A stretch of DNA of 40,102 nucleotides from Nostoc sp. NOS(2021) (lineage in GTDB: Bacteria > Cyanobacteriota > Cyanobacteriia > Cyanobacteriales > Nostocaceae), in contig NZ_JABXKM010000179.1 of NCBI RefSeq assembly GCF_017115025.1, forward strand, positions 1 through 40,102, given 5' to 3'. This document shows, piece by piece, positions 642 through 40,102 of the stretch. How positions within the stretch are numbered: position 1 is the stretch's first letter; the number at the start of each line of letters is the position of its first letter. Both the position numbers and the translations under genes were made by a program. The notes under the pieces are model-generated. The model was not told where the DNA came from. It saw only the letters and a list, made by a program, of their open reading frames with translations, and ran no database searches.

Positions 642-1679
642 TTACGGTTTAACTCCTTCAAATAGACTAAATCGAGAATTTTTTATTGGGATAATTTTAG
701 TCAGTTTGAATCCGGCAGATTTAAACAACTCTTTGAACTCTGTTTCAGTACGCTCTCGCCCACGAGAGCATACTACCAACATATGAACATCTTCAAGCTT
801 GACATTAGAAAACTCATTTCCAGAAGGCATTATGCATTCTATCACTAACAATCGCCCTTGTTCTTTCATGGCTTGATGACAGTGCTTAAGAATGTTGATC
901 GCTTGTTCATCATCCCAGAGGTGAATAACTTCCTTGAGCAAATAAACGTCTCCACCTTCTGGTATACCCTCAAAAAAGCTACCTCCAATGAGTTGACAGC
1001 GATTATGGACAGATGCTCGTTCACCTAAATTCTTAACTCTATCAATTGATTTTGGGAGATCGAATAACACACCTGTCATGGTGGGGTTAGCTTCGAGGAT
1101 AGCAGTAAGCAAATTACCCGTGCCACCACCAATATCAACCAGCTTGCCTATTGACGAAAAATCATAAGCCTCCAAGTATGGAGCATATAGCTCTAGTGAC
1201 GGATTACTAGCATATTTATGAAACATTTCTCCTGCAACAGGATTTTGCTCATAATACTGAAATAAATCTACGCCATACAAATGCTCAAAGGCGCTTTCCC
1301 CAGTCTGTACGCTATACATCAAATTTTCCCAGGGTTTATAGTAAAACTCCTCGCCTCGGAGGATTGCATCCTTACGCACTGAACCCGGAACATCGCTCTG
1401 CAAGGATTCTGCTTGTGGAGTTAGTTCAAAGCATCGGGGTTGTGTCTCAGCAAAAATTCCAAAACCCGCAAGAGATCGTAACACTCGATAAAGAGAATCG
1501 CTGTGGGTATTTGTTGCAGAAGCTAAAGCATCGCAGTGCTGAGAACCATCTTTGAGCAAATCTGCAATGCCAAGTTTTGCAACAACATAGATCATCCGTG
1601 AAATCCAGTAAGCATATACCAACTCTCCTGTAGTTAATGAAAGCTCAATCTTGCTAGGCTTAGAGTTTAATAAAACCAC
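642..1679 (-). CDS. SAM-dependent O-methyltransferase
   Basis: At 345 aa this is the normal length for the family with an N-terminal winged-helix dimerisation domain (about residues 20-100) and a C-terminal Rossmann methyltransferase domain. SAM-binding motif I is seen as LVDIGGGTGN (180-189), followed by the acidic FDLP segment (206-209). His253 in KEVIHLWDDE is at the place of the catalytic base of plant-type and CrtF-like O-methyltransferases. The GRERTETEF segment near the C-terminus is also typical. The likely reaction is transfer of methyl from SAM to a hydroxyl of the pathway product; the acceptor is unknown. The start is GTG at 1677-1679, with GGGAG seven bases upstream. It is the last gene of the minus-strand series, 105 bp after the dehydrogenase, so it is probably a late tailoring enzyme. 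Confidence 0.85.
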   Translation of the reverse strand: MVLLNSKPSKIELSLTTGELVYAYWISRMIYVVAKLGIADLLKDGSQHCDALASATNTHSDSLYRVLRSLAGFGIFAETQPRCFELTPQAESLQSDVPGSVRKDAILRGEEFYYKPWENLMYSVQTGESAFEHLYGVDLFQYYEQNPVAGEMFHKYASNPSLELYAPYLEAYDFSSIGKLVDIGGGTGNLLTAILEANPTMTGVLFDLPKSIDRVKNLGERASVHNRCQLIGGSFFEGIPEGGDVYLLKEVIHLWDDEQAINILKHCHQAMKEQGRLLVIECIMPSGNEFSNVKLEDVHMLVVCSRGRERTETEFKELFKSAGFKLTKIIPIKNSRFSLFEGVKP

Positions 1680-1784
1680 GATTTTTCTCCCTTTTTCTTG
1701 AGTATTAGTACTTTGAAAGCATTGCAGTTGAAGAATCTACCTGAGTTTTGAGTATTCAGTTGGATATAAGACAAAAAGATAGCT

Positions 1785-2663
1785 TCAATTTGGATTTTTT
1801 AACTTCCAATTCCCTAGTATCCTTGCATCAAAACTTCGATCCGATAGAAACTTTTTAAGTATCAAATTAAGCTTTAAAGAAGTTTGATGCTTAGATAAGA
1901 AATAACGTGTTTTGGGTTTGCTAACTTCCAAAGCCTCTATAATTGTATATGCAACTTGTTCAGGTTGCATTCCTGTGCGATTTGATCTAATCAAACCCTC
2001 TACAAAAAATTTGTATGCATCACCATACATAGCTTTAGCTTCAGATGACATATTGGCAAAGTTTTTCCGAAAGCTCTCTTCAACTTTATCTGGTGCTGCT
2101 GAAGCAATTGATCCCGGTTCAACCAAAATGACTTCAATACCCCAAGGATCTAATTCCATTCTTAAAGCATCTGTAAATGCCTCCAATGCAAACTTGGAAG
2201 CACACAAGGAAGAGATAAATGGCGAGGAAATTTTACCACCAACTGAACCAATATTAACTATCCGACCTTTAGCTTTTCTAATTAATGGCAAAAATGCCTG
2301 TGTAACAGCTATTTGCCCAAAGACATTGACTTCAAATTGCCATCTCAGGTCTTCAATGGCAACGTACTCTACTGGTCCATCCAGTAACAGACCTGCATTA
2401 TTTACTAATCCAATCAGTCCTTCATTCTCAAGAGCTTTTGATACAATGTCTGCGGCAAATTTAATTTCTTCTGTTTTGGTAACATCCATCAAGATTGTTG
2501 TCAAATTCTCAGATGCATTATGCTTAAGTGATTCAGCATCTTTTTCTTTACGAACTGCTGCAAAGACACGATATCCTTTTTTGTCAAGTAGGAGCGCTGT
2601 TGCTTGACCAACGCCTGTAGACGTCCCTGTAATCAATACAGCACCTTTTTGATTATCAACCAT
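1785..2663 (-). CDS. Short-chain dehydrogenase/reductase lacking the catalytic Tyr
   Basis: The 292-aa protein has the classical SDR plan. The NAD(P)-binding motif is TGTSTGVG (13-20), the structural motif is NNAG (88-91), and the catalytic Ser is S140 in NIGSVGG. The active-site segment reads SSLCASKFALEAF. The usual YxxxK has Lys at 157, but position 153, exactly 13 residues after Ser140, is Leu (codon TTG) instead of Tyr. In normal SDRs that Tyr is the acid/base, so activity is doubtful or unusual. The sequence resembles retinol/estradiol-type SDRs with a C-terminal substrate lid. It lies 59 bp after the MATE gene and 105 bp before the methyltransferase. An AGGG precedes the ATG at 7 bases. 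A redox or binding role on the pathway product is inference. Confidence 0.85.
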   Translation of the reverse strand: MVDNQKGAVLITGTSTGVGQATALLLDKKGYRVFAAVRKEKDAESLKHNASENLTTILMDVTKTEEIKFAADIVSKALENEGLIGLVNNAGLLLDGPVEYVAIEDLRWQFEVNVFGQIAVTQAFLPLIRKAKGRIVNIGSVGGKISSPFISSLCASKFALEAFTDALRMELDPWGIEVILVEPGSIASAAPDKVEESFRKNFANMSSEAKAMYGDAYKFFVEGLIRSNRTGMQPEQVAYTIIEALEVSKPKTRYFLSKHQTSLKLNLILKKFLSDRSFDARILGNWKLKNPN

Positions 2664-2722
2664 TTTTTAACCCTTATGTTCAACAGAAATTAATTTGCGA
2701 TTCAAATCTGAATAAGTTGTTT

Positions 2723-4099
2723 TTAACCTGTCATTTTTTCAACTTCCATTTTTTCTAAAGACTTAAATTCTTTCACAGTCAATAATATAACAATTAAGAC
2801 AAAGAAAATATTAGTAAATATTATTCCGTAGTAAATGCCATTTACACCTAGTAGTCTAGAGAATAAAAACACTAATGGAACGAAGATAAGTAGACTCTTG
2901 AAAAGGAGTACTGTTGCAACTATTTTTTCTTTCCCTGTATATATAAATAGATTCCCAGTAAATCCAATAAAAGGCATAATTGGTATTAATAAATTTAGAA
3001 TTTGAAAGTTAAACAAATCATTTTGAGTAAAGTTAACATCTGGCAAGAGTAAGTTTAGAAATGTTTTTGGTAATAATTGTAGAGGCAACCAAAGTAATGT
3101 CAGTGTAGTAATTGCACCAATAATAAAAATAAAATAAGCTTTCTTAAGTCTTTTATAATTTCTAGCTCCATAATTTATACCGATTACAGGTTGTAAGCCA
3201 ATTATGAAGCCACTTAAAGGAAGAAATGCTAATGAACTCAATCTTTCTGTTGCTCCAAAGAAAGCTATATCTTGAGATGTTCCATAAATAGATATTGATT
3301 TAAAAGTTACAAAGTCCTGAACTAAACTTGTAACTGGAACTAGTATTAGTGATAGACCTATTGACAAAATACTAGGAAGTAAATCTATCGCTAGGGCAAA
3401 CTTTTTATAATTAACTGGAAAAGAACTTTTACCACAGAAGAAGTAAGTTAAGTTGAGAATACTATAAATAACCATCGCAAAAACTGTAGAAAGAGCTAAT
3501 CCTCGAACTCCCCAGCCTAGAATAGCAGTAAAAATATAATTTAATGTAATATCACTTATAGCAAAAACCCCAGCAGATATCATAGCCAATTTGACTTTGC
3601 CTTCTGATTTAATAATTTGACTAGAAGCTATTGCCAGCATAAAAAATAGTGAACCTAGTATATAAGTCTTAAAATAGTCGGCTCCAGCAGAAGCAAGCTC
3701 ACCTCTTGCTCCCATAAACATAATTAATTGTTCACCAAAACTATAGCCAATGATTGTTATCAAAGAAGCAATAATAATTATTATTACTATTAAGTTGCCA
3801 AATATTCTCGACTGATTTTTAATATCTCCAGAACCAATAGCTCGACTGAGAAGAGAAGCAGAACCTACTCCAATGATTTCAGCAGATCCACCAATAATAA
3901 AAGTAAGTGGTGCAGAAATAGATATAGCAGCAACAGCAGTTGTACCAATATATTGACCTGCAAAGAAAGCATTAATAAAACTGTTCAAGCCAGTTACTAG
4001 CATTCCTAACATACCAGGTATTACTAACTTGAACATCAATTTAATGAGATTGCCTTGGAGAATCTCATTCGTCATTTGAGATTGTTTTTGTGAAGTCAT
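2723..4099 (-). CDS. MATE family efflux transporter
   Basis: At 458 aa it is the usual length of multidrug and toxic compound extrusion proteins. About 12 hydrophobic segments run along the protein in two similar halves. The N-terminal signature is PGMLGMLVTGLNSFINAFFAG, and the second half repeats the pattern (ATERLSSLAFLPLSGFIIG and QPVIGINYGAR). MATE proteins are Na+ or H+ antiporters in the cytoplasmic membrane. In this setting it most likely exports the NRPS/PKS product. It lies 23 bp after the 2Fe-2S protein gene and 59 bp before the SDR gene, so co-transcription is likely. An alternative in-frame ATG occurs at codon 9. No strong ribosome binding site is visible. Closer assignment within DinF, NorM or MepA subfamilies is not attempted. 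Confidence 0.9.
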   Translation of the reverse strand: MTSQKQSQMTNEILQGNLIKLMFKLVIPGMLGMLVTGLNSFINAFFAGQYIGTTAVAAISISAPLTFIIGGSAEIIGVGSASLLSRAIGSGDIKNQSRIFGNLIVIIIIIASLITIIGYSFGEQLIMFMGARGELASAGADYFKTYILGSLFFMLAIASSQIIKSEGKVKLAMISAGVFAISDITLNYIFTAILGWGVRGLALSTVFAMVIYSILNLTYFFCGKSSFPVNYKKFALAIDLLPSILSIGLSLILVPVTSLVQDFVTFKSISIYGTSQDIAFFGATERLSSLAFLPLSGFIIGLQPVIGINYGARNYKRLKKAYFIFIIGAITTLTLLWLPLQLLPKTFLNLLLPDVNFTQNDLFNFQILNLLIPIMPFIGFTGNLFIYTGKEKIVATVLLFKSLLIFVPLVFLFSRLLGVNGIYYGIIFTNIFFVLIVILLTVKEFKSLEKMEVEKMTG

Positions 4100-4122
4100 T
4101 TTTAGGTTCTTGGCTTGTTTAT

Positions 4123-5154
4123 TTACTGGATCTTGACTAGATGGCTAACGTGATACTGCTTTACTGGTTTTAACTCCATTTGTTTTGCTGAATTTAATGC
4201 ACTCATAACTTCACCGCTAACTTCTACTCTGGCTTCATAAACACCTGATATACTTCCATCTGTAACTGCATAATCAATACGTACTTCAGCCCAATCAGCA
4301 TTTTCTTCTTCCTCACCTTCTTGAATAGCAACTACTTTGCCAGCTTTTAAATAGTTGAGCCAAGTCCAACCTAACTGCATCCAAATTTCGCACTCGGCAA
4401 TTTGCTCAAATTTGGTTAAACCCGCCCATCCCCGATAAAATTGACGCAAGTCAGAGACTGAGCCATGTTTGTTTACCAGTAAATCAAGGACTTCTGGTTC
4501 CAAATGTCCCCATAAGCATCCTTGAGGTAAATCAACTAGGGTAGGAGCAAACTGATGACCACCAAAGTGAGTTGTTTGCCAGACTCGTAATTTTCCATTG
4601 GAAATGGGCGCGTATTCCTTGCGTAATCGACGATATATAGGAGTCCCGAATCTGCCACAGGCAAGGTCAACTTGAGCATGGGTGCAAACCATGAGTTCGC
4701 GGATGTGATTGCTTTGTTGCTGATACTGCTGAAACTTTGATAAATCATTGGGCTGTTGGATTAACTGCTTGAGTATTGCCGTAACCAAGGCAGTTGCTTC
4801 CCCCTCTGGAACGACAAACTCCTGTTTCTCAAACTTAGAAAACAGCTTTGCAGGACGATAGTAGTATAGGACGCGGGTAAAGCCAGGGTAAGAGTATTCG
4901 CGGTCAGGAGCAATCAACATTGGTCTCAGGTTGACCCCATGTTTGACAATTAACTCTTGGAACAAACCTATCAATGGCTTAATTGTAGGATTTTCCTGAA
5001 AGAGGTCTTGAGACCAAGGTTGTGGAATTTCCATAATCAACCAATGGTCGCAAGTACCTGCTGTACCAATTGGGTCTTCTTTGTTGGTTTTGGAAACCAC
5101 GGAGCAAAAACGACAATCTGTCAGGGAAAGTAGATTTGTCTGTTGATTTTGCAA
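4123..5154 (-). CDS. Apd1/sucrase-ferredoxin-like 2Fe-2S protein
   Basis: This 343-aa protein resembles the sucrase/ferredoxin-like (Suc_Fer, Apd1) family, whose thioredoxin-fold C-terminal part binds a 2Fe-2S cluster through two Cys and two His. The expected ligands are visible. Cys157 and Cys166 are nine apart in CTHAQVDLACG. His196 and His200 are four apart in HFGGHQFAP. The same spacing is known for yeast Apd1. An N-terminal cluster CRFC occurs at residues 14-17. The gene starts with TTG at 5152-5154, fixed by a perfect AGGAGG eight bases upstream. It follows two P450 genes and a dioxygenase, so a redox-partner role is reasonable inference, but no partner domain is fused to it. It lies upstream of the MATE gene with a 23-bp gap. 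Confidence 0.85.
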   Translation of the reverse strand: MQNQQTNLLSLTDCRFCSVVSKTNKEDPIGTAGTCDHWLIMEIPQPWSQDLFQENPTIKPLIGLFQELIVKHGVNLRPMLIAPDREYSYPGFTRVLYYYRPAKLFSKFEKQEFVVPEGEATALVTAILKQLIQQPNDLSKFQQYQQQSNHIRELMVCTHAQVDLACGRFGTPIYRRLRKEYAPISNGKLRVWQTTHFGGHQFAPTLVDLPQGCLWGHLEPEVLDLLVNKHGSVSDLRQFYRGWAGLTKFEQIAECEIWMQLGWTWLNYLKAGKVVAIQEGEEEENADWAEVRIDYAVTDGSISGVYEARVEVSGEVMSALNSAKQMELKPVKQYHVSHLVKIQ

Positions 5155-5388
5155 TTCAAACCCCTCCTGAAAAAAAGCTATGAGGCAGCAGGGTTCTTAA
5201 ACCCAAACACTTAGAATTCATCATTTATCATTTCAGATAAATTACTCATTGAATCAAACTCAATCTATTTCTTACTCAAGTCCTAATCTCTTTCGCAAAC
5301 GACTATAACAAAGAGTGTCATAAAAATACTGAGTTGGCATTATTTTTTTACTATACCCCAAATTTAATGCCCCACTTTGATTTTGTAA
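5155..5388. other. 234-bp intergenic region, possible internal promoter zone
   Basis: This is the longest gap inside the minus-strand series, between the dioxygenase and the 2Fe-2S protein gene. Two TATAGT hexamers read on the minus strand (5350-5355 and 5302-5307) could be -10 boxes, but neither has a convincing -35 at the right distance. A 7-bp inverted pair (5336-5342 and 5365-5371) has a 22-base loop and no T-run. A promoter for the last four genes is plausible but not proven. Confidence 0.3.
5163..5168 (-). promoter_or_regulatory. Strong ribosome binding site AGGAGG before a TTG start
   Basis: On the minus strand AGGAGG is followed after 8 bases by TTG (5154-5152), which begins the 2Fe-2S protein frame. 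This is the best Shine-Dalgarno in the tailoring region and justifies the non-ATG start. Confidence 0.7.
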
Positions 5389-6258
5389 TTAGTCTAAACT
5401 CAAGTTAGTTAAGGTAGTGAATACCTCCCGTTGATTATCTTTGAATTCGCGCCGACCGTGCATAAATCTCGAATTATCTATCATCACTAGATCACCAGCT
5501 TGCCACGAGATTTCTTCCGTAAATTTGTCGTAAAGTTTCTGTATTTCGTCGGCAACTTCGTCAGGAAGCTTTGAACCATCTTCAAAAATCTCAAGTCCAT
5601 TTGCAAGAGGTCCCGAAAGGCTGTTAGCAAATGCATCTTGATTCTCATACTTTGTTTTTACTACTGCTGAACAAATATATTTGCAAGAAAGGGTCGAATC
5701 TTCATTTATCTGATAACTCAATCCCTCAATTTTATCCAATATTGGCTTGCAATTATCAAGGGTTTCACCTAAAACAAGAAAATTCTTTAAATCATCAAAT
5801 TCCACACTCTCAAAATCAAACTTTAGTTTTTTGTCAAGAAATAACTGTTTCGTATGTTTGCTCATTTCCTTCCATATTTGGACACCGTCTGCAAATAGAG
5901 TTTCGCCTCCTTGTACAGGCGTTTTACAGCAAAACCAAATAGCATCAGGTCGAAAAGGACTAAAACCATGCTCAACATGAAGAGAAATAGCATTCATTTC
6001 AGCATCTACGAAGTTAACAAAATCAACCGAGTCAAAACTTGTTTTTGTGGGGTCTCCAATGTAGCTAGAACTGAATTTTTCTGAAAAAGCTTTCATCTGG
6101 ATAGGAGTTACCCCAAAACCTCGAAAAAGAACAACTCCAGATGACTTGAATAGTTCAATATTTTCCGCTTTAGAAAAGCAGAAAATATCTTCATAATCGT
6201 TAGTACTATATACTATTTTTCCCGTTCCTATTCCAAATGACTCAATTTTATTCCTCAT
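5389..6258 (-). CDS. Fe(II)/2-oxoglutarate dioxygenase, TauD/SyrP-like
   Basis: The 289-aa protein has the TauD/TfdA fold signature. Iron ligands are seen as His94-Val-Glu96 in LHVEHGFSPFRP and a distal His267 in DNSRFMHGRREF. Arg277 (QREVF) is placed to bind the carboxylate of 2-oxoglutarate. The acidic ligand is Glu rather than the commoner Asp, as in SyrP-like enzymes that hydroxylate carrier-bound amino acids (family knowledge from memory). The segment FCCKTPVQGGETLFADG is typical of this group. The likely role is hydroxylation of an unactivated carbon of the growing or released product, perhaps next to the amino-acid units; the substrate is inferred only. It follows the second P450 after 61 bp. 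The ATG start has no good ribosome binding site. Confidence 0.85.
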   Translation of the reverse strand: MRNKIESFGIGTGKIVYSTNDYEDIFCFSKAENIELFKSSGVVLFRGFGVTPIQMKAFSEKFSSSYIGDPTKTSFDSVDFVNFVDAEMNAISLHVEHGFSPFRPDAIWFCCKTPVQGGETLFADGVQIWKEMSKHTKQLFLDKKLKFDFESVEFDDLKNFLVLGETLDNCKPILDKIEGLSYQINEDSTLSCKYICSAVVKTKYENQDAFANSLSGPLANGLEIFEDGSKLPDEVADEIQKLYDKFTEEISWQAGDLVMIDNSRFMHGRREFKDNQREVFTTLTNLSLD

Positions 6259-6319
6259 TGCTTTTATTTGAGATTTTTTGCATTAAGTTTGTAACTGCTT
6301 ACCGCAATAAAAACGCATC

Positions 6320-7702
6320 TTACGCTGAATTAGCAACGAACTGCTGTGGCTGCTCTTGGTCTAAACGCTGATCAAGCATTACCATTTTCAAGCCACTAGC
6401 AGGAGGATAGTTAACACCACGAGCTTTGGGCTTTTCTACTCTTTTTTCATCCGCTAATACTAGTTGATAGTGTGAAATAATCGTTGCTAAAACCAGCTTC
6501 ATTTCAAAAAGTGCTAATGCCTCGCCCGGACAGCGACGAGCACCACCACCAAATGGTAGAAATTCATAGGGAGAATATTGTCGCTCCAGAAAGCGCTCTG
6601 GCTTGAATTGCTTTGGTTGTGGGTATAAGTCCTGACGTTGGTGTGTCAGATAAATAGAGCCTCTGACCACTGTACCTGGACTTAACTCGTAGCCCATCAC
6701 CTCAATTGGTGATTCTACGAGTCGTGGAAATGTGACTACCTGAGTTGGATAAATTCGTAGTGCTTCATTACAGACAGCGCTGAGGTAGGGTAGCGCAACG
6801 ATGCTCATAGGATCTGGGGATTCACCGAGGGTATCGAGTTCTTCTAGCAATCGTTCGCGAACAGCAGGTAAACTATGAATCCAGTACAATGACCAAGTTA
6901 TGGCAGTAGCTGACGCATCCTGACCACCCAATAGCAATGATGGGAATAAATCCCGCATATCCTCATCGGTCATTGGTTGACCAGTTTCATCGCGAGCAAA
7001 TATTAGTTCGGAGAGGACATCGGTGCGGGAGGGATCTGCTTGCGATCGCCGTTCTGCAATTTCAGTGTAGAGTAGTTTATCAAATTGTCGTTGGAGGTTC
7101 TGCCAGTATCCCCACGGACTCCACCGACCTAAATCTCGTCGGAGAAAGGGATAAGACAGGGATAATCCCAGCCAGCGAGACCGGGCAAAACTTAATAACT
7201 TGGAAAAGAGTAGCCTAAATTGTTCGTAACGCTCTCCCTCATGCAAACCAAACAAAGCTTGCAATATCACCTCTAGAGTAATCTTTTGCACGGTAGGGTA
7301 GGCATAAAAAGATTCGCCGATCGCTAGATCGTTCATGACTTTTTCTGCAACTTGACAGATACGCTGCCCGTATGCTTTTACCCTAGTTCCATGCAGGGGA
7401 GGCATTAACAACTGACGGCGATGTTTGTGACGCAAGCCATCAAGCATGAGTAATCCATTGTTTCCAACTAAGGGTGCGCCACCTTGGTTCAGCTTACCAG
7501 AAGCTGTGATCTCTTTGGCACTTGTAAAAATCTGCTTCATTCCTTGCGGGTTACTTACGATCACTAAAGGTGTATCACCACCTAGAATGGTGAAAATGTC
7601 ACCATAGCGATCGCTCATAGCATCCATGAAGCCAAGAGGATCGGTCTTAAAATGATGACTCAGCGATCGAGGAGAATCTTTTGGTCCTTCAGGTAATTTC
7701 AT
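6320..7702 (-). CDS. Cytochrome P450, CYP110-like (second of a tandem pair)
   Basis: This is a soluble 460-aa P450. It shows the haem-binding loop FGGGARRCPG with Cys391, the ExxR motif in CNEALRIYP, and the I-helix oxygen-activation segment GGQDASAT. The N-terminus (LPEGP..., DPLGFMDAMSDRYGDIFT) matches the style of the cyanobacterial CYP110 family (recalled, not searched). It has no N-terminal membrane anchor. P450s hydroxylate or otherwise oxidise substrates using two electrons from a redox partner, and none is fused here. It is a paralogue of the upstream P450, with the same length and Cys position and long identical stretches such as the ESPDPMSIVALPYLSAVCNE region, so it arose by tandem duplication. 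The gap to the upstream P450 is 39 bp. Oxidation of the peptide-polyketide is the expected job. Confidence 0.93.
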   Translation of the reverse strand: MKLPEGPKDSPRSLSHHFKTDPLGFMDAMSDRYGDIFTILGGDTPLVIVSNPQGMKQIFTSAKEITASGKLNQGGAPLVGNNGLLMLDGLRHKHRRQLLMPPLHGTRVKAYGQRICQVAEKVMNDLAIGESFYAYPTVQKITLEVILQALFGLHEGERYEQFRLLFSKLLSFARSRWLGLSLSYPFLRRDLGRWSPWGYWQNLQRQFDKLLYTEIAERRSQADPSRTDVLSELIFARDETGQPMTDEDMRDLFPSLLLGGQDASATAITWSLYWIHSLPAVRERLLEELDTLGESPDPMSIVALPYLSAVCNEALRIYPTQVVTFPRLVESPIEVMGYELSPGTVVRGSIYLTHQRQDLYPQPKQFKPERFLERQYSPYEFLPFGGGARRCPGEALALFEMKLVLATIISHYQLVLADEKRVEKPKARGVNYPPASGLKMVMLDQRLDQEQPQQFVANSA

Positions 7703-7741
7703 TACTATTTTTTTTAATGATTGTTTAATTATCGATAGCTA

Positions 7742-9121
7742 TTAAATTGAACCAACAACCAATGGCTGCGACTGTCCTTGATGCTGACGCCGACTCTGCA
7801 TAAGCATTTTCACGCCACTATCTGGGTAACAAATCAGACCTCCAAATTTTGGCTTTTCTGGTCGCTTGTCAACCAGCCCTAATTGATAACGTGAAAGAAT
7901 TGTCGCCAACACAAGCTTCATTTCAAATAAGGCAAAAGCCCCACCAATACAAGTACGAGCACCGCCGCCAAAGGGAAGAAATTCATAGGGAGAGTATTGT
8001 TTTTCCAAAAAGCGCTCTGGCCTAAATTGTTTTGGTTCTGGGTATAAATCTTCACGCTGATGCGTCAAATAAATATTCCCAAGTAGTACTGTTCCTGGAC
8101 TTAACTCATAACCCATCACATTAACTGGGGACTCTACCAACCTTGGAAATGTGAATAACTGAGTCGGGTAAATTCGCAAAACTTCGTTACAAACAGCACT
8201 AAGGTAGGGCAATGCAACAATGCTCATGGGATCTGGGGATTCACCAAGACAATCAAGTTCCTCAAGGAGTCGTTCGCGAACGCCAGGTAAATGGTGAATC
8301 CAATATAAAGACCAAGCGATCGCAGTTCCTGAAGCATCTTGAGCTGCAAATATAGGCGATAATAGGAGGTCGCGCACCTCTTCATTACTTAATGATTCAC
8401 CCGTTTCATCATGAGCAAATATGAGATCAGAGAGGATGTCAGTGCGTGAGGGATCTGCTTGCTCACGGCGTTCTTCGACTTCAGCATATAGCAATTGGAA
8501 AAGTTCTCGCTGGAGATGAAGTATGTATCCCCTTGGACTCCACTGACCTAGATCCCGTTGTCCAAAGGGAAGTTGTGTAACGATCTCATATAGAGGAGAT
8601 TGCTGATATTTGATGATAGAAGCAAAGAGATGCTTGATTTTGTCATAGCGCTCTCCCTCACGCAATCCCATTACAACCTCTATACCCACCCGCAGGGTGA
8701 TATCTTCGATAGTAGGGTAGGCAATAAAAGGTTTTCCAATCGCCTGTTGACTCATAATTTTTTCTGTGAGTTCGCAGATACGTCGCCCACAGGCTTGCAT
8801 CCGTTCTCCGTGAAAAGCCTGCATTAAGAGCTTACGCCGATGTTTGTGACGGAACCCATCGAGTTGAAGCACTCCTTGGTTTCCTGTACCCCCAGCGAAA
8901 TTGCTGTTCAATGCACCCCTAGCGATAATTTCTTTCGTGTTGGTGAAAATCTGCTTTATACCGGAGGGATTGCTGACATGCACTATTGGCGTAGAATCAG
9001 ACATTATGGTGACAATATCACCATAGCGTTTGCAAACGGCGTCCATATAGCCAAAAGGGTCAGCCTGGAATTGCTGGTTTAGCAGCCAATTAGGGATTTT
9101 CGGTCCTGCGGGTAGGTTCAT
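7742..9121 (-). CDS. Cytochrome P450, CYP110-like (first of a tandem pair)
   Basis: This is a 459-aa P450 with Cys391 in FGGGARTCIG, ExxR in CNEVLRIYP and the I-helix segment AAQDASGT. Compared with its neighbour, the I-helix begins AAQD instead of GGQD and the substrate-recognition regions differ more than the C-terminal half. This suggests the two copies now oxidise different positions. It begins 22 bp after the stop of the thioesterase-containing NRPS and is therefore the first tailoring gene after the assembly line. No clear Shine-Dalgarno precedes the ATG, and translation may rely on coupling. The substrate is unknown. Confidence 0.93.
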   Translation of the reverse strand: MNLPAGPKIPNWLLNQQFQADPFGYMDAVCKRYGDIVTIMSDSTPIVHVSNPSGIKQIFTNTKEIIARGALNSNFAGGTGNQGVLQLDGFRHKHRRKLLMQAFHGERMQACGRRICELTEKIMSQQAIGKPFIAYPTIEDITLRVGIEVVMGLREGERYDKIKHLFASIIKYQQSPLYEIVTQLPFGQRDLGQWSPRGYILHLQRELFQLLYAEVEERREQADPSRTDILSDLIFAHDETGESLSNEEVRDLLLSPIFAAQDASGTAIAWSLYWIHHLPGVRERLLEELDCLGESPDPMSIVALPYLSAVCNEVLRIYPTQLFTFPRLVESPVNVMGYELSPGTVLLGNIYLTHQREDLYPEPKQFRPERFLEKQYSPYEFLPFGGGARTCIGGAFALFEMKLVLATILSRYQLGLVDKRPEKPKFGGLICYPDSGVKMLMQSRRQHQGQSQPLVVGSI

Positions 9122-9143
9122 CAGTCTTGTTTACTGCGATTTT

Positions 9144-27450: not shown

Positions 27451-27504
27451 CAGAGAAAACGGTTTTAAATTACCAAACAGAATCAAGGTGTCAGTTGCCA
27501 GAAT

Positions 27505-32642: not shown

Positions 32643-33713
32643 TCAGCTAAGTGAGACCAAATTTTCCTGATTAAGGCTACAGAGATCCTTCAAATCTTTG
32701 AGGTAAGGCAAACTTGCCATGACTGCATCAAAATTTGGGTTGAAATCAATTAAACAAGCGACTTCATCAACACCAACCTGTTTTAAACGCTCAATCATTT
32801 GCATACAAGTCGTTTTTGACCCAATCAGAGTTCTTCCTTTTAGCCAACCTTCATAGGCAAACCGTAAAAGACTATTGATGTCTGCTTCGGTAAATTTCTC
32901 TAAATTTACATTTATACCAGCATTCTTAGCTAAATTTTCAAGTAAGTCAATATGTGTTTTTAAGTAATTGCAAAAAGGTTCCCTTGCTTGTTCTTTTACT
33001 GTGTTGAAGTCTTCTCCTACAAACGTATGTATCATCATTGCTACTTTCCCTGCTTTAGGGTCATGACCGTATTTTGCTAAAGATTGTCGATACAGTGATA
33101 TTTGTGGAGCGACTTCTTCTATAGTTCCTCCCAACAAAGAAGTGAGTACGTTAGCACCTATTTTGCCAGCTTCAATAAATGTTGCGTTTGATTGACACAC
33201 AATCCAAGTAGGGAGTTTGTGCTGTATTGGTCGTGGAAATGTCCTCACTTTGAAAGTGTTTCCTGTTGCATCTTTGAGTTCAACTTGTTCACCTTCCCAA
33301 AGCTTATGGACTATCTGGATTCCACTCCACATACTTTCTTTCCGGTTGGCATGAATTTCGCTAGAAAGTACAAAGTCATCTATCGTCCAACCTGAGGCAA
33401 AAGCAAGGGCAACTCTACCGTTTGAAAGATTATCAACCACAGACCATTCTTCAGCAACACGTGCTGGATTATGAAGTGGCATGACAATACTGCCAGAGCG
33501 CAATTGAATTCGCTCAGTTATCATAGCCAGTGCTGCACTTGTCAACGATGGGTTAGGATAAAGTCCTCCAAACGGGTGAAAATGACGTTCCGGAGTCCAC
33601 AGTGCGGAAAAACCATTTTGATCGGCAAATTTTGCACTTTCTATTAATAGATTATACTTGTTCGTTTGAGTTTTTAAACCATCGCCGGAAAAATAAAATA
33701 GACTAAATTCCAT
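32643..33713 (-). CDS. Luciferase-like FMN monooxygenase, MupA/Atu3671 type
   Basis: The protein is about 356 aa from the ATG at 33713-33711. The N-terminus MEFSLFYFSGD, followed by FSALWTPERHFHPFGGLYPNPS, ITERIQLRSGSIVMPLHNPARVAEEW and VALAFASGW, is typical of the bacterial luciferase-like family found in natural product clusters (MupA/Atu3671). These use reduced FMN and oxygen. Family members occur free-standing or fused within NRPS/PKS proteins, and their exact reactions differ. The frame extends upstream to a TTG at 33737, but GGAGG at 33727-33723, nine bases before the ATG, decides the start. It sits alone between PKS-1 (136 bp from the ATG) and the serine NRPS, suggesting it oxidises the Ala-malonate intermediate on the carrier. 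That substrate is inference. A separate flavin reductase is not visible in the window. Confidence 0.87.
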   Translation of the reverse strand: MEFSLFYFSGDGLKTQTNKYNLLIESAKFADQNGFSALWTPERHFHPFGGLYPNPSLTSAALAMITERIQLRSGSIVMPLHNPARVAEEWSVVDNLSNGRVALAFASGWTIDDFVLSSEIHANRKESMWSGIQIVHKLWEGEQVELKDATGNTFKVRTFPRPIQHKLPTWIVCQSNATFIEAGKIGANVLTSLLGGTIEEVAPQISLYRQSLAKYGHDPKAGKVAMMIHTFVGEDFNTVKEQAREPFCNYLKTHIDLLENLAKNAGINVNLEKFTEADINSLLRFAYEGWLKGRTLIGSKTTCMQMIERLKQVGVDEVACLIDFNPNFDAVMASLPYLKDLKDLCSLNQENLVSLS

Positions 33714-33722
33714 TTCTAAAAT

Positions 33723-33727
33723 CCTCC
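33723..33727 (-). promoter_or_regulatory. Ribosome binding site GGAGG of the luciferase-like monooxygenase
   Basis: GGAGG on the minus strand lies 9 bases before the ATG at 33713. It supports the shorter start over the upstream TTG at 33737. Confidence 0.65.
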
Positions 33728-33849
33728 ATTTGTACAAAACAGGTATTAATTTTTTGATTATCTTATTAGCAACATTAAAGAGTTCCTAATTCCTGGGGTT
33801 TGGAAATTAAAATCTTGACAACATCCAAACCAATTTTATGGTGAGTCTA

Positions 33850-36800
33850 CTAAGAATCTGTCACTAGTTCTTGTTGAATTTCTTCTGCTGAGAGGCTTTT
33901 TATCTCTTGTAATAAAGCCGCAATTTCTTGATTTTCTTCTTGATTAGGTTGTGTTTCAGCAATGATAACAGCAAGCCCAGCCACTGTAGGAGCATCAAAA
34001 AGAATACTTTGTAGAGGCAATTCCACTTGAAAATTTTCTCGCAGACGTGAAGTCACCTGAACAGCTAGCAAAGAGTGTCCTCCTAACTCAAAAAAGTTAT
34101 CATGAATGCCCACTAATTCAGTACCAAGAAGCTCTTGCCAAATATTTGCAATCTTTTGCTCAATCTCGTTACTAGGAGCTATGTAGGCAGTTTGCAGATT
34201 TGGTCTTGAGTGCTGCGAGAGTTGGTCTTCTTGGGAATTCTTCGTACTGTGTAGAGATTCACGCTTGATCCATGTGTTAAGCCTGACTTGCAAATCTCCT
34301 GGTGAAACAATGAATTGACCTGCTGAACCCATTGATAAAACGCGCACAGAAACATCCCATACTTCTTTGGGTGTCATTGCCAATTCATTCAAATCTGCTC
34401 CAAACCCAATATTTTCTTCTTGTTTCTCTTCATACTTTACGGCATCCCAATTGATGCTGAACCATGAAATGGAGCTTGTCTGATTACGTTTGTTTACAAA
34501 AGCATCAATGAAGAGATTAGCTGCGGAATAGGCAACAAGTCCAAGTCCTCCCACAACAGACGATAATGAGGATTGCAACAGATAAAAATCAAGTTCTCTG
34601 CCTTGTAAGACTTTTTCTATGACATAGAGTCCGTGAACTTTTGAGTGGAATTGCGACTCACTCTCAGTTCGACCAATCTCTTGAATAGAGAAAGCTGACT
34701 TCTCGTTACTCATTGGTGTTACGTAGAACACCCCATGAATCTGACCAAAGTATTCATATGCTTGAGTAATTGCTGCTTGCACTTGTTCAAAATTTGCAAT
34801 ATCAGCCTCAATAATGAGAAATTTTGTACCTAACTCTTCTAACGCAAGTATTTTTCGGATGTAGCAACTAATTGCATCCTGTTCATCATGAGTTACTAGC
34901 CATTGCGACCATTCATTTCTTTGGGGAAGCCCTATATTACCAATCAGGATGATTTTAGCTTGTACTGTTTGAGCTAAATGCTCTGAAAACACTAAACCAA
35001 GACTTCCCATCAGATCGCCTGCAATTAAGTAAATTCCCCCTTCTCTGAGTCTAATTGTTTCTTCTTCAACTTCTTTTAATTGTGCAGGCTCAAAGGTTTG
35101 TACCCATCTATGACTAGCACGGTAAGCAACAACCAAGTCAGATAACTGGGTCGTCAGTTCTGCCATGAGTTGGTTTATGAGTTGATTTTCCTGGGAAGTC
35201 CCCGATTCCGGAATAACGATATCAATGTTACGGCAGGTAATATTTGGGTACTCTTGGGGAATTACCTTACATGGCCCTAATACTGTCCCCTTTTCTGGAA
35301 TCAAATCCTCTTGCCCAATAGTATCATAAAGATTGTTGGTCACAATCATTATTTGAACAGAAGTCGTAACATTCTGTTCAAATAATGATTGTGCTATGAA
35401 GAGTAAACTGTAAAAACCTAAATTCTGATGCTTTTCAAAGCTTGAAATTGCTGATTGTGTCTGCTCGAACAAGGTTTGATTTTGGGATTGAATATTTGCT
35501 GTGACACCCCAAAAATGAGCAATGGTTTGTGGAATTTTATCTATTGTATGTAATGTTTGGAATAGGGCATCATAGTCATGTCGCTGTTGAGGATTGATTG
35601 CGTAGGTGCGATCGCTCAGTTGAGTAAATTTCTCTCCTACGGTTACAGTAATAATTTCTTGCCCTTCTTGCTCCAGTTGTTGAACAATTTGTGCGCCTAG
35701 TTTAGATGAATCCACAAAGACCAGCCAACACAGCTTTTGCTTTACCAACCTTCTTTTTTGGAAGGGTTCAAGTAACTTTACTTGTTTCCAGCTAGGAAGA
35801 TAAAACCAGTCGCCAATATTTGGTTTTTTGCTGAGTTGAATTTGACGATTATTGCTAATATCTATTGTTTGCGACTCAATCCAATAACGCTGGCGCTCAA
35901 AAGGGTATGTTGGCAATGGCATTCGATGTCTTTGCTCGGTAACATAAAAGCCATCCCAATCTACCTGTACTCCTGCTAGCCAAAGTCGCCCTAAAGTATT
36001 GAGTAAAAATGCTACATCCGACTTTTTCTCTTTTGGATGGCGCATTGAACTCAACACTATTGACTGATTAGTTTGTTGTTTTACAAAAGTGTTTAAAGTT
36101 TGCCCAGGGCCAACTTCTAGCAATATTTGGTCTGATTCTTTAATTAACTCAGCAATGCCTGTACGAAAGCGCACGGTGTGCCGCAGATGTCTTGCCCAGT
36201 AAGTGGGATTGGTTGCTTCATTATTAGTAATCCAAGCTCCTGTTAAGTTGGAGATAAATGGAATTTGAGGAGGATTTAAGTTAAATTTTTCAACTTGCTT
36301 GGTAAATGGTTCCAGGATAGAATCCATAATTTGGGAATGAAAAGCGTGGGAAGTATGCAATCGACGACACTCTACACCTTGTTGTGTTAAGCGATTTTGC
36401 AAACTGGCGATCGCTTCTTCACAACCTGATACAACACATAGTGATGGTGCGTTAATTCCAGCAAGAGTTAGTTCTTCATTCAGCCAAGGTTGTATCTCCT
36501 CCTCAGAAAGTGAAACGGAAAGCATAGCACCCGTTGGGAGTTGTTGCATGAGTTGTCCACGGGCAGCAACAAGTGCTAAAGCATCTTCTAGAGAGAAAAC
36601 ACCTGCCAAACAAGCAGCGACATACTCTCCTATACTGTGACCAATCATTGCTGTAGGAGATATGCCCCATGCCATCCACAACTGAGCTAAGGCATAGTCA
36701 ATAACAAATAGTGCTGGCTGAGTGATATGAGTTTGTTGCAGTTGCTCTGCTGCTGCTTGTGAGTGTTCTTCATCTGGGTATAGAATAGTGCATAAATCAA

Positions 36801-38529
36801 TACTTAAGTGAGATTTGAGTATTTCACAGCATTTATCAATATGTTTCCGAAATACGGACTCAGTTTCGTATAATTCCCGACCCATATTCACATACTGTGA
36901 ACCTTGACCAGGAAACATTAACACAACCTGTCGGTTACACGGTTCTTGAAAGTGGGTGAAAATTCTTTGTGGGTCTAGAGTCTCTAGGGTTTTTACTGCA
37001 TCATCAGAGTTCTGACATACTACCATTCGACGATGGTCAAATGCTCGACGACCAACTTCAAGAGTATATGCTACATCAGCCAGGTTTAAGTCAGGATGCT
37101 GCTTGAAGTGGGTAACTAAATTTGCCGTCGCAGTTTCTAGTGCCGAGTCTGTTTTTGCAGAAAGCAGCAATAACTGCCAAGGGCGAGAAGGACTTGAAGG
37201 TTCAACAGATGGGGCTTCTTCGAGTATTACATGGGCATTGGTTCCACCAATACCAAAAGAACTGACTCCAGCGCGACGGGGAGTACCGTTTGTCTTCCAT
37301 TCTGAAAGTGTGGTATTGACGTAAAAGGGGCTGTTATCAAAGTCTATTTCAGGATTAGGCTGCTCAAAGTGCAAGCTAGGCGGTATTTGTTGATGCTTAA
37401 GAGCTAAAACAGTCTTGATTAATCCTGCAACACCAGCCGCAGTATCTAGGTGTCCAATATTCGTTTTGAGTGAACCGATCGCACAGAAACTTTTTTTCTG
37501 GGTATCGGCATGAAACGCTTGTGTCAGTGCTGCGATTTCAATTGGATCTCCCAAAGATGTTCCTGTTCCGTGTGCCTCAATATAAGTTATTGTTTCTGGG
37601 TCAACCTCAGCCATAACTTGAGCTGCTCTAATCACCTTTGCTTGTGTATCAATACGGGGAGCCGTGTAGCTAACTTTAAGAGCGCCATCGTTGTTGATAG
37701 CTGAACCTTTAATGACAGCATGAATGCGATCGCCATCAGCAAGAGCATCCTCTAATCGCTTCAATACCACAATGCCTAGACCATTACCAAAAACGGTTCC
37801 CTGTGCTTTAGCATCAAAGGCACGGCAATGACCGTCTGGAGATAAAATTCCCCCTTCTTGATATAAATATCCAGCTTTTTGTGATGAACTGATTGCAACA
37901 CCACCAGCTAAGACAATATCACATTCACCACCTAGCAAACTTCGACAGGCTAGATGTACAGCAACTAATGAAGTTGAACAGGCCGTTTGAATGTCTATTG
38001 AAGGCCCTTCTAACTCTAATTTGTAGGATACTCGTGTCGTTAGGAAATCTTTGTCATTTCCAAATACCAACTGTTGATTATCAATAGAATTTATAAGATT
38101 TTGATTTGAATAAATGTTAATTAGATAACTATTAATACTTGTACCACCATAAATCCCAATCAATCCTTTGTACTTTTGAGAATCGTAGCCAGCGCTTTCA
38201 AGAGCCTCCCAAGCGCACTCTAAGAAAAGACGTTGTTGGGGATCGATGATTTCTGCTTCTCTTGGATTGAAGCCAAAGAATGAAGCATCAAATAATTCCA
38301 CATCTTCTAATGCAGCTCTAGATTTTACATACTGAGGGTGATTCAGCATAGCAGAATCTATTCCTGAAGATATCAGTTCTTCATCTGTGAAAGAAGCTAT
38401 TGACTCCACCCCATTTTGCAGATTTTGCCAAAATTCATCAAGATTTTTGGCACCAGGAAAACGACCAGCCATGCCAATTATGGCTACTTCTAACCCATTT
38501 TGACTGAATTCTGCGGAAGTACTCATCAT
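33850..38529 (-). CDS. Type I PKS module PKS-1: KS-AT-(degenerate KR)-ACP
   Basis: The protein is 1559 aa. KS (about 12-440) has the active Cys near 183 in TACSTS, HGTGT and TNIGH. AT (about 540-850) has GHSIGEY near 631 and HAFH near 727, pointing to malonyl-CoA. The KR keeps Lys, Ser, Tyr and Asn (FHSKVHG, SSLSSVVGG, AYSAAN near 1333). Its nucleotide-binding loop is broken: TGGLGGIG is replaced by AGDLMGSLG near 1171 with one extra residue, LxGR is LIGN, and HAAG is VTPM. NADPH binding is probably lost and the beta-keto group kept. The ACP has GGHS near 1485, a peptidyl-carrier-like variant. The ATG lies 5 bp after the stop of the preceding NRPS. It should add malonate to the alanyl unit. 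A 112-bp gap follows before the longest monooxygenase frame. Confidence 0.93.
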   Translation of the reverse strand: MMSTSAEFSQNGLEVAIIGMAGRFPGAKNLDEFWQNLQNGVESIASFTDEELISSGIDSAMLNHPQYVKSRAALEDVELFDASFFGFNPREAEIIDPQQRLFLECAWEALESAGYDSQKYKGLIGIYGGTSINSYLINIYSNQNLINSIDNQQLVFGNDKDFLTTRVSYKLELEGPSIDIQTACSTSLVAVHLACRSLLGGECDIVLAGGVAISSSQKAGYLYQEGGILSPDGHCRAFDAKAQGTVFGNGLGIVVLKRLEDALADGDRIHAVIKGSAINNDGALKVSYTAPRIDTQAKVIRAAQVMAEVDPETITYIEAHGTGTSLGDPIEIAALTQAFHADTQKKSFCAIGSLKTNIGHLDTAAGVAGLIKTVLALKHQQIPPSLHFEQPNPEIDFDNSPFYVNTTLSEWKTNGTPRRAGVSSFGIGGTNAHVILEEAPSVEPSSPSRPWQLLLLSAKTDSALETATANLVTHFKQHPDLNLADVAYTLEVGRRAFDHRRMVVCQNSDDAVKTLETLDPQRIFTHFQEPCNRQVVLMFPGQGSQYVNMGRELYETESVFRKHIDKCCEILKSHLSIDLCTILYPDEEHSQAAAEQLQQTHITQPALFVIDYALAQLWMAWGISPTAMIGHSIGEYVAACLAGVFSLEDALALVAARGQLMQQLPTGAMLSVSLSEEEIQPWLNEELTLAGINAPSLCVVSGCEEAIASLQNRLTQQGVECRRLHTSHAFHSQIMDSILEPFTKQVEKFNLNPPQIPFISNLTGAWITNNEATNPTYWARHLRHTVRFRTGIAELIKESDQILLEVGPGQTLNTFVKQQTNQSIVLSSMRHPKEKKSDVAFLLNTLGRLWLAGVQVDWDGFYVTEQRHRMPLPTYPFERQRYWIESQTIDISNNRQIQLSKKPNIGDWFYLPSWKQVKLLEPFQKRRLVKQKLCWLVFVDSSKLGAQIVQQLEQEGQEIITVTVGEKFTQLSDRTYAINPQQRHDYDALFQTLHTIDKIPQTIAHFWGVTANIQSQNQTLFEQTQSAISSFEKHQNLGFYSLLFIAQSLFEQNVTTSVQIMIVTNNLYDTIGQEDLIPEKGTVLGPCKVIPQEYPNITCRNIDIVIPESGTSQENQLINQLMAELTTQLSDLVVAYRASHRWVQTFEPAQLKEVEEETIRLREGGIYLIAGDLMGSLGLVFSEHLAQTVQAKIILIGNIGLPQRNEWSQWLVTHDEQDAISCYIRKILALEELGTKFLIIEADIANFEQVQAAITQAYEYFGQIHGVFYVTPMSNEKSAFSIQEIGRTESESQFHSKVHGLYVIEKVLQGRELDFYLLQSSLSSVVGGLGLVAYSAANLFIDAFVNKRNQTSSISWFSINWDAVKYEEKQEENIGFGADLNELAMTPKEVWDVSVRVLSMGSAGQFIVSPGDLQVRLNTWIKRESLHSTKNSQEDQLSQHSRPNLQTAYIAPSNEIEQKIANIWQELLGTELVGIHDNFFELGGHSLLAVQVTSRLRENFQVELPLQSILFDAPTVAGLAVIIAETQPNQEENQEIAALLQEIKSLSAEEIQQELVTDS

Positions 38530-38534
38530 GTTTA

Positions 38535-40102
38535 TTAAACTCTCTTACTAATTGTCAAAAATTGTTTGAGCCGAGATTTACCATCTTTGATCTGTTCAGT
38601 TCTAGTATCAGTTTGATTAATAGATAATGGTTTATTTGTGTTTGTTTTATTGAGGAACTCTGCCAAATAACTGATAGTTGGATATCTAAACATTTCAAGC
38701 ATTGATAAATTTGCTGGGAATATTTGACGCAACTGGTTATGAACCTGAACTATCAGCAATGAATGTCCACCAAGCTCAAAAAAGTTATCGTGAATACCTA
38801 CTTTTTCTAGGTTGAGTGCCTTCTGCCAAACAGTCGCGATCGCTTTTTCCAAATCAGTTTGTGGTTTGATGTAAGTCGCTTCCAACTGTAGACGAAGATT
38901 ATCCGGTGCTGGCAATGCTTGACGATTGACCTTGCCATTGGGTGTCAATGGCAGAGCCTTCATCGGCACAAAGACCATAGGTACCATATAATCAGGCAAA
39001 TTTTCTTTTAAGAAGCTCCGTAACTCGCTGAGTGTAGGAGTAAACTCCTGTTCAGACACCACATAAGCCACTAGCCGTTTATCCTCAGGTACATCCTCTC
39101 GGACAACAACTACAGCCTCTCGAACGGTAGGATATTCAGTTAATCGTGCTTCAATCTCTCCAAGTTCAATGCGGAAGCCACGAATTTTAACTTGGTGGTC
39201 GATACGACCAATGTACTCTATCTCTCCATTAGGCAGATAGCGGGCTAAATCTCCTGTTTTGTAAAGGCGTGCGGCTGATTTGTCACTAAAATGGTTGGGG
39301 ATGAATTTTTCTGCTGTCAGCTCGGGGCGGTTTAAGTAGCCACGAGCCAGTCCATCTCCACCTATGTGCAGTTCTCCAGGTACACCAACAGGAACGGGTT
39401 GTAAATCTTGATCCAATAAATAAATCTGCGTATTGTTAATAGGACGACCAATAGGTGGGATATTGCTAGCATTCTTCTGTATCCAAGCAAACGTCGAATA
39501 AGTTGTATCTTCAGAAGGACCGTACAGGTTGAAAACTTGCTGTATATTTTCCCACTGATAGAGTTGCTGTACAAGTTTGTTTTGGAGTGGTTCACCAGCT
39601 ATATTAATTGTCTGCACTGAAGTTGGAATGCCGTCAGTCCTTAATAACTCCGCAATCACGCTGGGAACAGTGTTGATTAAAGATACGTTTTTAGCTGCGG
39701 GTAAAGTTGGTAAATGTAGTATATTGTCGATCAAGATGACCTTACCTCCATAGCACAGAGGAACAAACATCTCGAAGGTTGAAAGGTCAAAACAAATCGA
39801 CGTTGACGCCAAAACTCCTTCCCTAGCTTCAGCAGCAAAGATTTTTTTTGCCCAATCCAACATCGCAACTGTACTATGGTGTTTGATCATTACACCCTTG
39901 GGTTGTCCAGTCGAGCCAGAGGTATAGATGACATATGCTAGGTTGCTAGTAGTTACCTCAGTTACGGAATTTTCCTTATTTTCTTGAGCAATAAGCAGCC
40001 AATCAGTATCTAAACAAACGACTTGGGCTTGGTGTTGGGGCATGGCTTCCAGTAGCCGCGCTTGAGTAAGCAGCACTGGTACTTGGGAGTCTTTTAGTAT
40101 AA
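38535..40102 (-). CDS. NRPS, A-PCP part, predicted alanine module (5' part outside window)
   Basis: The frame is open through the right edge. The residues before the apparent GTG start (ILKDSQVPV) continue a normal A-domain, so the start is beyond 40102. Visible are YTSGSTGQPKG, FDLSTFEMF, NLYGPSEDTTY, GELHIGGDGLARGYL, YKTGDLARYL, KIRGFRIELGEIE and NGKVNRQALP. A PCP with GGHS near 38760 follows, then a basic tail ending KSRLKQFLTISKRV. My reading of the code positions is D-L-F-N-N-A-L-T-Y-K, which I remember as an alanine code in cyanobacterial NRPSs. A condensation or loading domain must lie upstream. The stop is 5 bp from the PKS-1 start, so the two are in one operon. It delivers an alanyl (or upstream-extended) thioester to PKS-1. 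Confidence 0.92.
   Translation of the reverse strand, partial: ILKDSQVPVLLTQARLLEAMPQHQAQVVCLDTDWLLIAQENKENSVTEVTTSNLAYVIYTSGSTGQPKGVMIKHHSTVAMLDWAKKIFAAEAREGVLASTSICFDLSTFEMFVPLCYGGKVILIDNILHLPTLPAAKNVSLINTVPSVIAELLRTDGIPTSVQTINIAGEPLQNKLVQQLYQWENIQQVFNLYGPSEDTTYSTFAWIQKNASNIPPIGRPINNTQIYLLDQDLQPVPVGVPGELHIGGDGLARGYLNRPELTAEKFIPNHFSDKSAARLYKTGDLARYLPNGEIEYIGRIDHQVKIRGFRIELGEIEARLTEYPTVREAVVVVREDVPEDKRLVAYVVSEQEFTPTLSELRSFLKENLPDYMVPMVFVPMKALPLTPNGKVNRQALPAPDNLRLQLEATYIKPQTDLEKAIATVWQKALNLEKVGIHDNFFELGGHSLLIVQVHNQLRQIFPANLSMLEMFRYPTISYLAEFLNKTNTNKPLSINQTDTRTEQIKDGKSRLKQFLTISKRV

Follow-up and report, generated by a model that had tools for sequence, protein, structure and literature searches.

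A fatty-acyl-AMP ligase-started hybrid NRPS-PKS line of Nostoc sp. NOS(2021), probably for a lipopeptide siderophore, with a recurrent β-alanine and cysteine-thioesterase end

What is assembled by the nonribosomal peptide synthetase (NRPS) and polyketide synthase (PKS) genes that fill positions 1-40102 of an 83,513-base contig (C324, NZ_JABXKM010000179.1) of Nostoc sp. NOS(2021), and do these genes form a whole pathway? The 40,102-nucleotide stretch that was analysed, hereafter the window, carries 16 NRPS/PKS and tailoring genes, all of which lie on the minus strand in the list of open reading frames. A previous reading from the letters alone (the sequence-only reading) had taken them for the order alanine, malonate, serine, three malonates, β-alanine and thioesterase (TE). 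The full order is longer, with this series as its second half, and the window is most likely the 3' two-thirds of a hybrid NRPS-PKS line started by a fatty-acyl-AMP ligase (FAAL), which we consider likely to make a lipopeptide siderophore (metallophore).

A 100-N scaffold gap, which is located at contig positions 40103-40202 inside an NRPS gene, directly follows the window edge, and the cut adenylation (A) domain at the edge is therefore ruled out as a biological break. The contig runs on upstream for about 21 kb past the window on the same strand with further NRPS/PKS genes, which add one PKS and another three A domains for amino acids (codes DTEDIGSIV, DLTKIGEVG and VDWVISLGD), so that the biosynthetic row covers about contig positions 642-61305, with an adjoining TonB receptor that ends at 65,282. 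Families were called with Pfam and NCBIfam models and compared with each model's cut-off, and A-domain codes were extracted by alignment, with position rules and substrate names taken from general knowledge. The FAAL domain at the head of the row is best matched among PDB chains by 7r7g ('Polyketide synthase', 626 bits) and reaches 312-323 bits with FadD32 FAAL chains (314 bits with 5ey9), suggesting that the FAAL start of cyanochelin-type lines is present here. Immediately upstream of the gap, 1976 bp match the C-domain region of the preceding module at 98.8% identity, possibly a collapsed or mis-joined repeat, and the NRPS module count at the gap is therefore provisional. The module order there is supported by Spirirestis rafaelensis WJT71-NPBG6 (L013), which has the identical order of β-alanine and then alanine.

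The siderophore reading is based on a TonB receptor by the FAAL gene, a cyanochelin-type unit of C domain, TauD, interface domain and aspartate or asparagine (Asx) module, and an association between TonB receptors and the terminal modules of the line. A TonB-dependent siderophore receptor (TIGR01783, 438.7 bits against a cut-off of 223.5) and a PepSY_TM protein are encoded divergently from the FAAL gene, and a short AraC-type protein is also present by the FAAL gene (HTH_18, 32.8 bits, where Pfam sets its cut-off just above, at 33.6). In the upstream NRPS, the first C domain carries SLPALCAD in place of HHxxxDG, as expected of the interface type, and similar motifs are possessed by both β-OH-Asp modules of the cyanochelin B line (TLPALCAD and NLPSLCAD), two modules of a Nostoc NIES-3756 cluster, two modules of genome G113 and, by alignment, two modules of Nostoc UHCC 0926 (SLPAICAD and SLPALYAD). 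The A code after the interface domain is DLTK-G-VG, of Asx type, in eight of nine cases, the other being a G113 module with SSRDVAMGI. Moreover, PKS, C, TauD and interface-A follow one another in the identical order in the NIES-3756 cluster, whose annotation includes a TonB receptor, a ferric reductase and ABC genes for iron siderophores. The shorter series C, TauD, interface and Asx is common to the window line, cyanochelin B, the NIES-3756 cluster and Nostoc UHCC 0926. The TauD of the upstream unit shares 65.7% identity with its NIES-3756 counterpart and 49.7% with one on the cyanochelin B plasmid (AP017310). These alignments point to the cyanochelin-type combination of a TauD with an Asx A domain that is preceded by an interface-type C domain, and two β-OH-Asp units of cyanochelin B itself have been proven by nuclear magnetic resonance, according to excerpts of PMC12628792.

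The end of the line recurs as a cassette in other genomes. The PCP-TE stretch was searched over 388 genomes sampling the order, with at most five candidates per genome scored, and at least 20 cassette loci were found in at least 17 of the 388 genomes (a lower bound for that sample) at 58-83% identity, the own locus at 100% and the own genome included, below which identity drops to 45-46%. In the PKS before the terminal module, the ketoreductase (KR) motif TGGxGxxG is broken at 14 of these 20 loci, no KR-like sequence was found at the other 6, and none has it intact. The TE nucleophile is cysteine in 20/20, while serine is read in 13/13 of the next-nearest TEs for which there is a locus (identity 40-43%); among the nine best PF00975 loci of the own genome, seven have serine, g13 has cysteine and one was not read. 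A P450 resembling g14 follows the module in 15 of the 20 cassette stretches, the aspartate decarboxylase PanP is found within 13 (some stretches are too short to tell), and the β-Ala-type A5 motif is kept by 18 terminal A domains, with G003b and G295c deviating.

At 13 of the 20 cassette loci, the contig also carries a TonB plug receptor no more than 80 kb away, against 2.44 expected (P ~6e-9), and at 11 the distance is at most 60 kb, against 1.88 expected (P ~9e-8), where both distances were picked after seeing the data and the expectation comes from receptor numbers and genome sizes in an independent-loci model that ignores relatedness and contig ends. On plasmid pn1 of Nostoc UHCC 0926, one row contains a TonB receptor divergent from a FAAL gene, a TauD, interface Asx modules and the full cassette. 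In the Spirirestis locus, PanP matches at 83%, the last PKS at 68% and the β-Ala module at 77%. A scan of genome contigs with the serine NRPS brought up 53 loci, most of them unspecific NRPS, and when these were compared by the TE alone, only the Spirirestis locus was close (77%, partial). PanP itself exceeds the TIGR03799 cut-off by a narrow margin (611.8 against 606.1 bits), and a search of 243 genomes gave 17 relatives of at least 45% identity with a locus (L097-L113), all 17 of which are flanked by NRPS/PKS sequence on one side or both. The same β-Ala Cys-TE end is also carried by other hybrid lines in genomes G056, G074 and G166 (L145-L153). In G056, a chorismate-binding (salicylate-type) gene and a Cys-type module stand at the start of the line, which is possibly related to salicylate-type cyanobacterial metallophores. 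As well, the last two code positions are AN in terminal β-Ala-type A domains (the g13 A domain is at 10287-11795) and AD or GD in internal ones, a constant difference which may reflect another β-amino acid.

How the chain would be released is less certain. For kirromycin, parts of PMC5818483 and PMC4979870 describe a pyridone built on an N-β-ketoacyl-β-alanyl thioester. An aspartate decarboxylase provides its β-alanine, a Dieckmann cyclase takes part, and the P450 KirOI is required for the ring double bond. The window line shares the substrate type, the β-Ala supplier and the P450, and its motifs suggest that, as in kirromycin, a β-ketoacyl chain is passed to the final β-Ala module. The g13 TE carries the Cys-Asp-His triad (positions by alignment) of the NcmC/TrdC Dieckmann cyclases, which are free-standing, but within a C-terminal TE. 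Following the same logic as for the kirromycin pyridone, Dieckmann release to a 3-acyl-piperidinedione or pyridone is proposed, and by this analogy the cysteine TE may well close the ring, though we stop short of calling it probable.

Several observations stand in the way of ring closure, and it is a serious possibility, also short of probable, that the siderophore is made as proposed while the TE only hydrolyses or macrolactonises, leaving a β-alanine end and no acyl-piperidinedione or pyridone. The TE is closest by sequence to ordinary type I TEs, and its AlphaFold model (mean pLDDT 82) is nearest in fold to the same class, the best match being 4zxh, which is itself a cysteine enzyme by sequence. 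Membership of the NcmC family was unsupported, as the 50 structural matches listed do not include NcmC (6E6Y). A cysteine nucleophile is also found in unrelated TEs, namely 2 of the 15 others in the alignment, and no g14-like P450 is present in the stretch at 5 of the 20 cassette loci. According to excerpts of PMC10956176, Cys-Asp-His is the triad of free-standing Dieckmann cyclases, and production was not restored when Cys was changed to Ser in BpdE, but Ser-Asp-His is the triad of those in-line TE domains that have Dieckmann activity; cysteine is therefore neither needed nor diagnostic for Dieckmann release, and simple hydrolysis by g13 is possible. However, KR loss is kept in 20/20 loci exactly where a Dieckmann nucleophile needs a β-ketone, and cysteine is fixed in the cassette against serine in the next-nearest TEs. 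We tentatively suggest a widespread cyanobacterial siderophore family with a 3-acyl-piperidine-2,4-dione or 3-acyl-4-hydroxy-2-pyridone head made by an in-line cysteine Dieckmann TE, which together with β-hydroxy-Asx and an α-hydroxy-β-ketone made by the luciferase-like monooxygenase (LLM) g07 would form a mixed-donor iron site.

The LLM scores 501.7 bits with the MupA/Atu3671 model TIGR04020 (cut-off 244.45), and its relatives at 84% (G134, Gloeocapsopsis dulcis AAB1 plasmid) and 82% (G240) adjoin g06-like PKS genes, with the PKS before the LLM likewise having a broken KR motif in G134 and G240. MupA hydroxylates only a β-keto thioester bound to an acyl carrier protein (ACP), according to the available text of PMC10953402. 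Because g06 and the LLM travel together with the broken KR, and by the MupA precedent, g07 likely α-hydroxylates the Ala-derived β-ketoacyl chain from g06. A general rule that such an LLM always follows a dead KR is contradicted: among 29 loci of LLM relatives, 10 have no KR-like sequence and 19 have a readable KR, whose motif is off in only 5 (L067, L068, L069, L071 and L079); in the other 14 it stays near TGGxGxxG. LLM fragments in G119 gave no lead.

Assuming colinearity of genes and units, the line would read FAAL-ACP, X (code DTEDIGSIV), malonate (KR intact), Asx, β-Ala, Ala, malonate (β-keto, acted on by the LLM), Ser, two malonates (β-OH), malonate (β-keto), β-Ala and TE. TauD would β-hydroxylate Asx, the LLM would hydroxylate the carbon alpha to the g06 ketone, and PanP would provide β-alanine. 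The cysteine TE would then free the β-ketoacyl-β-alanyl thioester by Dieckmann closure as a 3-acyl-2,4-piperidinedione, which a P450 may, as for kirromycin, convert to a 4-hydroxy-2-pyridone by dehydrogenation. Finally, the product would be exported by the MATE protein, and a predicted metal complex would re-enter through the adjacent TonB receptor. The starter code has counterparts in Nostoc NIES-3756 (DAEDIGSIV) and the Spirirestis locus (DAEDIGSVV), and the acidic positions in it would fit a basic amino acid. Once assembly is complete, an acylase might cut off the fatty chain, for which pyoverdine offers a precedent; an annotated acylase is found near the Gloeocapsopsis and Nostoc NIES-3756 clusters.

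The siderophore assignment has its own weak points. The NCBIfam fatty-acyl-AMP ligase models give 482-537 bits, each below its own cut-off, the interrupted NRPS is incomplete owing to the gap, and the contig ends 641 bases past the O-methyltransferase gene g20, leaving genes beyond it unseen. No TonB plug receptor is present on the contig at 7 of the 20 cassette loci (two of these contigs are shorter than 45 kb). The Asx code is DLTKIGEVG here and DLTKIGHVG in cyanochelin B, which we take to bring it nearer to Asn, and because of this E in place of H, Asn is possible at that unit. Of the scanned proteins from the remainder of the contig, none was recognised as an ABC importer for iron siderophores; the two ABC proteins at the far end are of ABC-2 type. 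The want of such an importer leaves some room for a membrane-active or antibiotic lipopeptide-polyketide beside which the TonB receptor is a chance or passenger neighbour, since FAAL-started lipopeptides such as puwainaphycins and microginins are common in cyanobacteria and kirromycin itself is an antibiotic. We regard this as unlikely, given the excess of TonB receptors near cassette loci, the same divergent arrangement of receptor and FAAL gene in UHCC 0926, and the interface/TauD unit of cyanochelin type. Far less credible is the stand-alone, small lipid-free Ala-malonate-Ser-triketide-β-Ala product of the sequence-only reading, to which the contiguous window genes and a first visible A domain for alanine lend some colour, and whose lipid a later acylase could still strip (the genome's one penicillin-amidase-type PF01804 match, G000:C329:16654-18603, L173, is on another contig), but whose alanine starter and lipid-free assembly are ruled out, as the alanine protein is the 3' end of a gap-broken gene with C*-A-PCP-C-A-PCP-C and a FAAL gene ahead on the same strand.

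Within the window, the gene contents agree with what the sequence-only reading had described (Table 1). Pfam and NCBIfam recover four PKS, two complete and one cut NRPS, PanP, the LLM and the tailoring genes, and the one-strand set with its domains, the MupA-type monooxygenase, the two P450s, the SyrP-like oxygenase (a TauD) and the methyltransferase were all borne out. Code extraction gave DLFNNALTYK (g05b), DVWHISLIDK (g08) and VDWVISFANK (g13), which stand for Ala, Ser and a β-Ala type, the same amino acids as before. The four window PKS have the GHSIG/HAFH motifs of malonyl acyltransferases, in line with the earlier call, and the ketosynthase Cys-His-His is present in all PKS. The KR motif is broken in g06, intact in g10 and g11 and broken in g12, therefore predicting keto, OH, OH, keto, as had been proposed. 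The only plus-strand reading frame of at least 120 amino acids (1912-2607) is antisense to the short-chain dehydrogenase (SDR) gene and was set aside.

Table 1. Predicted features of the line (window positions equal contig positions)
Feature	Position	Strand	Prediction	Basis
g20	642..1679	-	O-methyltransferase	Pfam Methyltransf_2
g19	1785..2663	-	SDR	Pfam
g18	2723..4099	-	MATE exporter	Pfam
g17	4123..5154	-	Sucrase/ferredoxin-like (Suc_Fer) protein	Pfam
g16	5389..6258	-	TauD-family Fe/2-oxoglutarate dioxygenase	Pfam
g15	6320..7702	-	Second cytochrome P450	Pfam
g14	7742..9121	-	Cytochrome P450, kept near g13-type modules	Pfam
g13	9144..13298	-	C-A(VDWVISFAN)-PCP-TE, Cys nucleophile GGFCYGG; predicted Dieckmann release	Pfam, alignment
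g12	13486..18102	-	PKS KS-AT-KR(broken, PGGLESFG)-ACP; predicted to leave β-keto next to β-Ala	Motifs
g11	18095..22759	-	PKS KS-AT-KR(intact)-ACP	Domain and motif reading
g10	22798..27486	-	PKS KS-AT-KR(intact)-ACP	Domain and motif reading
g09	27505..29145	-	PanP aspartate 1-decarboxylase, predicted β-alanine supply	TIGR03799
g08	29189..32584	-	C-A-PCP, code DVWHISLIDK (Ser)	Pfam, code alignment
g07	32643..33737	-	MupA/Atu3671-family flavin mononucleotide LLM, predicted α-hydroxylase of g06 β-keto intermediate	TIGR04020
g06	33850..38529	-	PKS KS-AT(malonyl)-KR(motif broken)-ACP; predicted to leave β-keto; LLM partner	Motifs
g05b	38535..40102	-	A-PCP, 3' part of gap-cut NRPS	Pfam; code DLFNNALTYK
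Upstream NRPS	Beyond N gap, continues into g05b	-	C*-A(DLTKIGEVG)-PCP-C-A(VDWVISLGD)-PCP-C-A(cut)	Pfam, codes
Free C domain, then TauD dioxygenase	Between upstream PKS and NRPS	-		Domain reading
Upstream PKS	Beyond window	-	KS-AT-KR(intact)-ACP	Domain reading
Starter	Contig 55849-61305	-	FAAL-ACP-C-A(DTEDIGSIV)-PCP	NCBIfam, PDB chains, code

Among the tailoring genes, the g16 TauD has its best plasmid match (48.9%) in a siderophore-type cluster of Nostoc sp. NIES-3756, and g20 has a relative at 69% in Nostoc sp. UHCC 0926. The Suc_Fer protein g17 is possibly a dedicated P450 electron donor; its relatives are found at 74-76% in G134 and G240, and two copies are present in the Gloeocapsopsis plasmid stretch.

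To our knowledge, this cluster family has no known product, and no paper on its end cassette was found in the open-licence literature searched. The layout had been called unrecognised, and this holds for the whole order, which is unmatched in that literature, but not for its two ends, a cyanochelin-type 5' part and a recurrent 3' module; the siderophore context lies outside the window and was therefore invisible to the sequence-only reading. If the proposal is true, a large cluster family of Nostoc and other cyanobacteria would gain a function in the acquisition of iron or another metal, the co-travel of the cysteine TE with loss of the last KR would be explained, and PanP with a KR-less PKS and a β-Ala Cys-TE module would be a new genome-mining marker for metallophores. 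A β-tricarbonyl or pyridone chelator would also join the short list of metallophore groups, since acyl-piperidinediones and acyl-pyridones are not included in the list of chelating groups of nearly all peptide metallophores given in the excerpt of PMC12971057, and iron-chelating 2-pyridones have been reported from a fungus (PMC8669486). No β-alanine end is mentioned in the portions of the fatuamide, lusichelin and leptochelin-A bioassay literature consulted.

Among known systems, the cyanochelin B line of Leptolyngbya sp. NIES-3755 (AP017310) is similar in its FAAL start, its hybrid PKS-NRPS, its TauD β-hydroxylase with an Asx A domain that follows an interface-type C domain, and an iron-siderophore type receptor gene next door. 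It differs, in the parts of PMC12628792 considered, by a thioester reductase domain with an ethanolamine end and by Gly, Ser, Phe and thiazoline units; the stretches listed name no PanP or separate LLM gene, and its PKS has an 'Ox' flavin monooxygenase domain. The clusters on plasmid NZ_CP119970 of Gloeocapsopsis dulcis AAB1 and on plasmid pn1 of Nostoc sp. UHCC 0926 share the FAAL start, TonB receptor, PanP, KR-broken PKS, β-Ala Cys-TE module, P450, SDR, Suc_Fer and MATE. However, their middle modules are different, with Gly and Thr codes among them, and they carry 3-hydroxyacyl-CoA/acyl-CoA dehydrogenase genes of the ACP-bound extender type, which the window line lacks. The mupirocin α-hydroxylation bimodule, as far as the excerpt describes it, likewise has a free-standing LLM of the same NCBI family (MupA) that needs a β-ketone on ACP, whereas the window line is a cis-acyltransferase PKS with a broken KR and its next module is an NRPS, not a KS0. 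Finally, the kirromycin terminus (KirD, KirB, KirHI and KirOI) also combines, in the sections seen, an aspartate decarboxylase, a final β-Ala NRPS module after a β-keto PKS and a ring P450. In kirromycin, there is no TE and the cyclase KirHI is free-standing, whereas the window line has a C-terminal cysteine TE and a pyridoxal-phosphate-dependent PanP, and no separate Dieckmann cyclase was recognised among the genes scanned at the line. Because of this C-terminal TE and the want of a free-standing cyclase, the terminus of the window line is better said to work like a kirromycin terminus than to be one.

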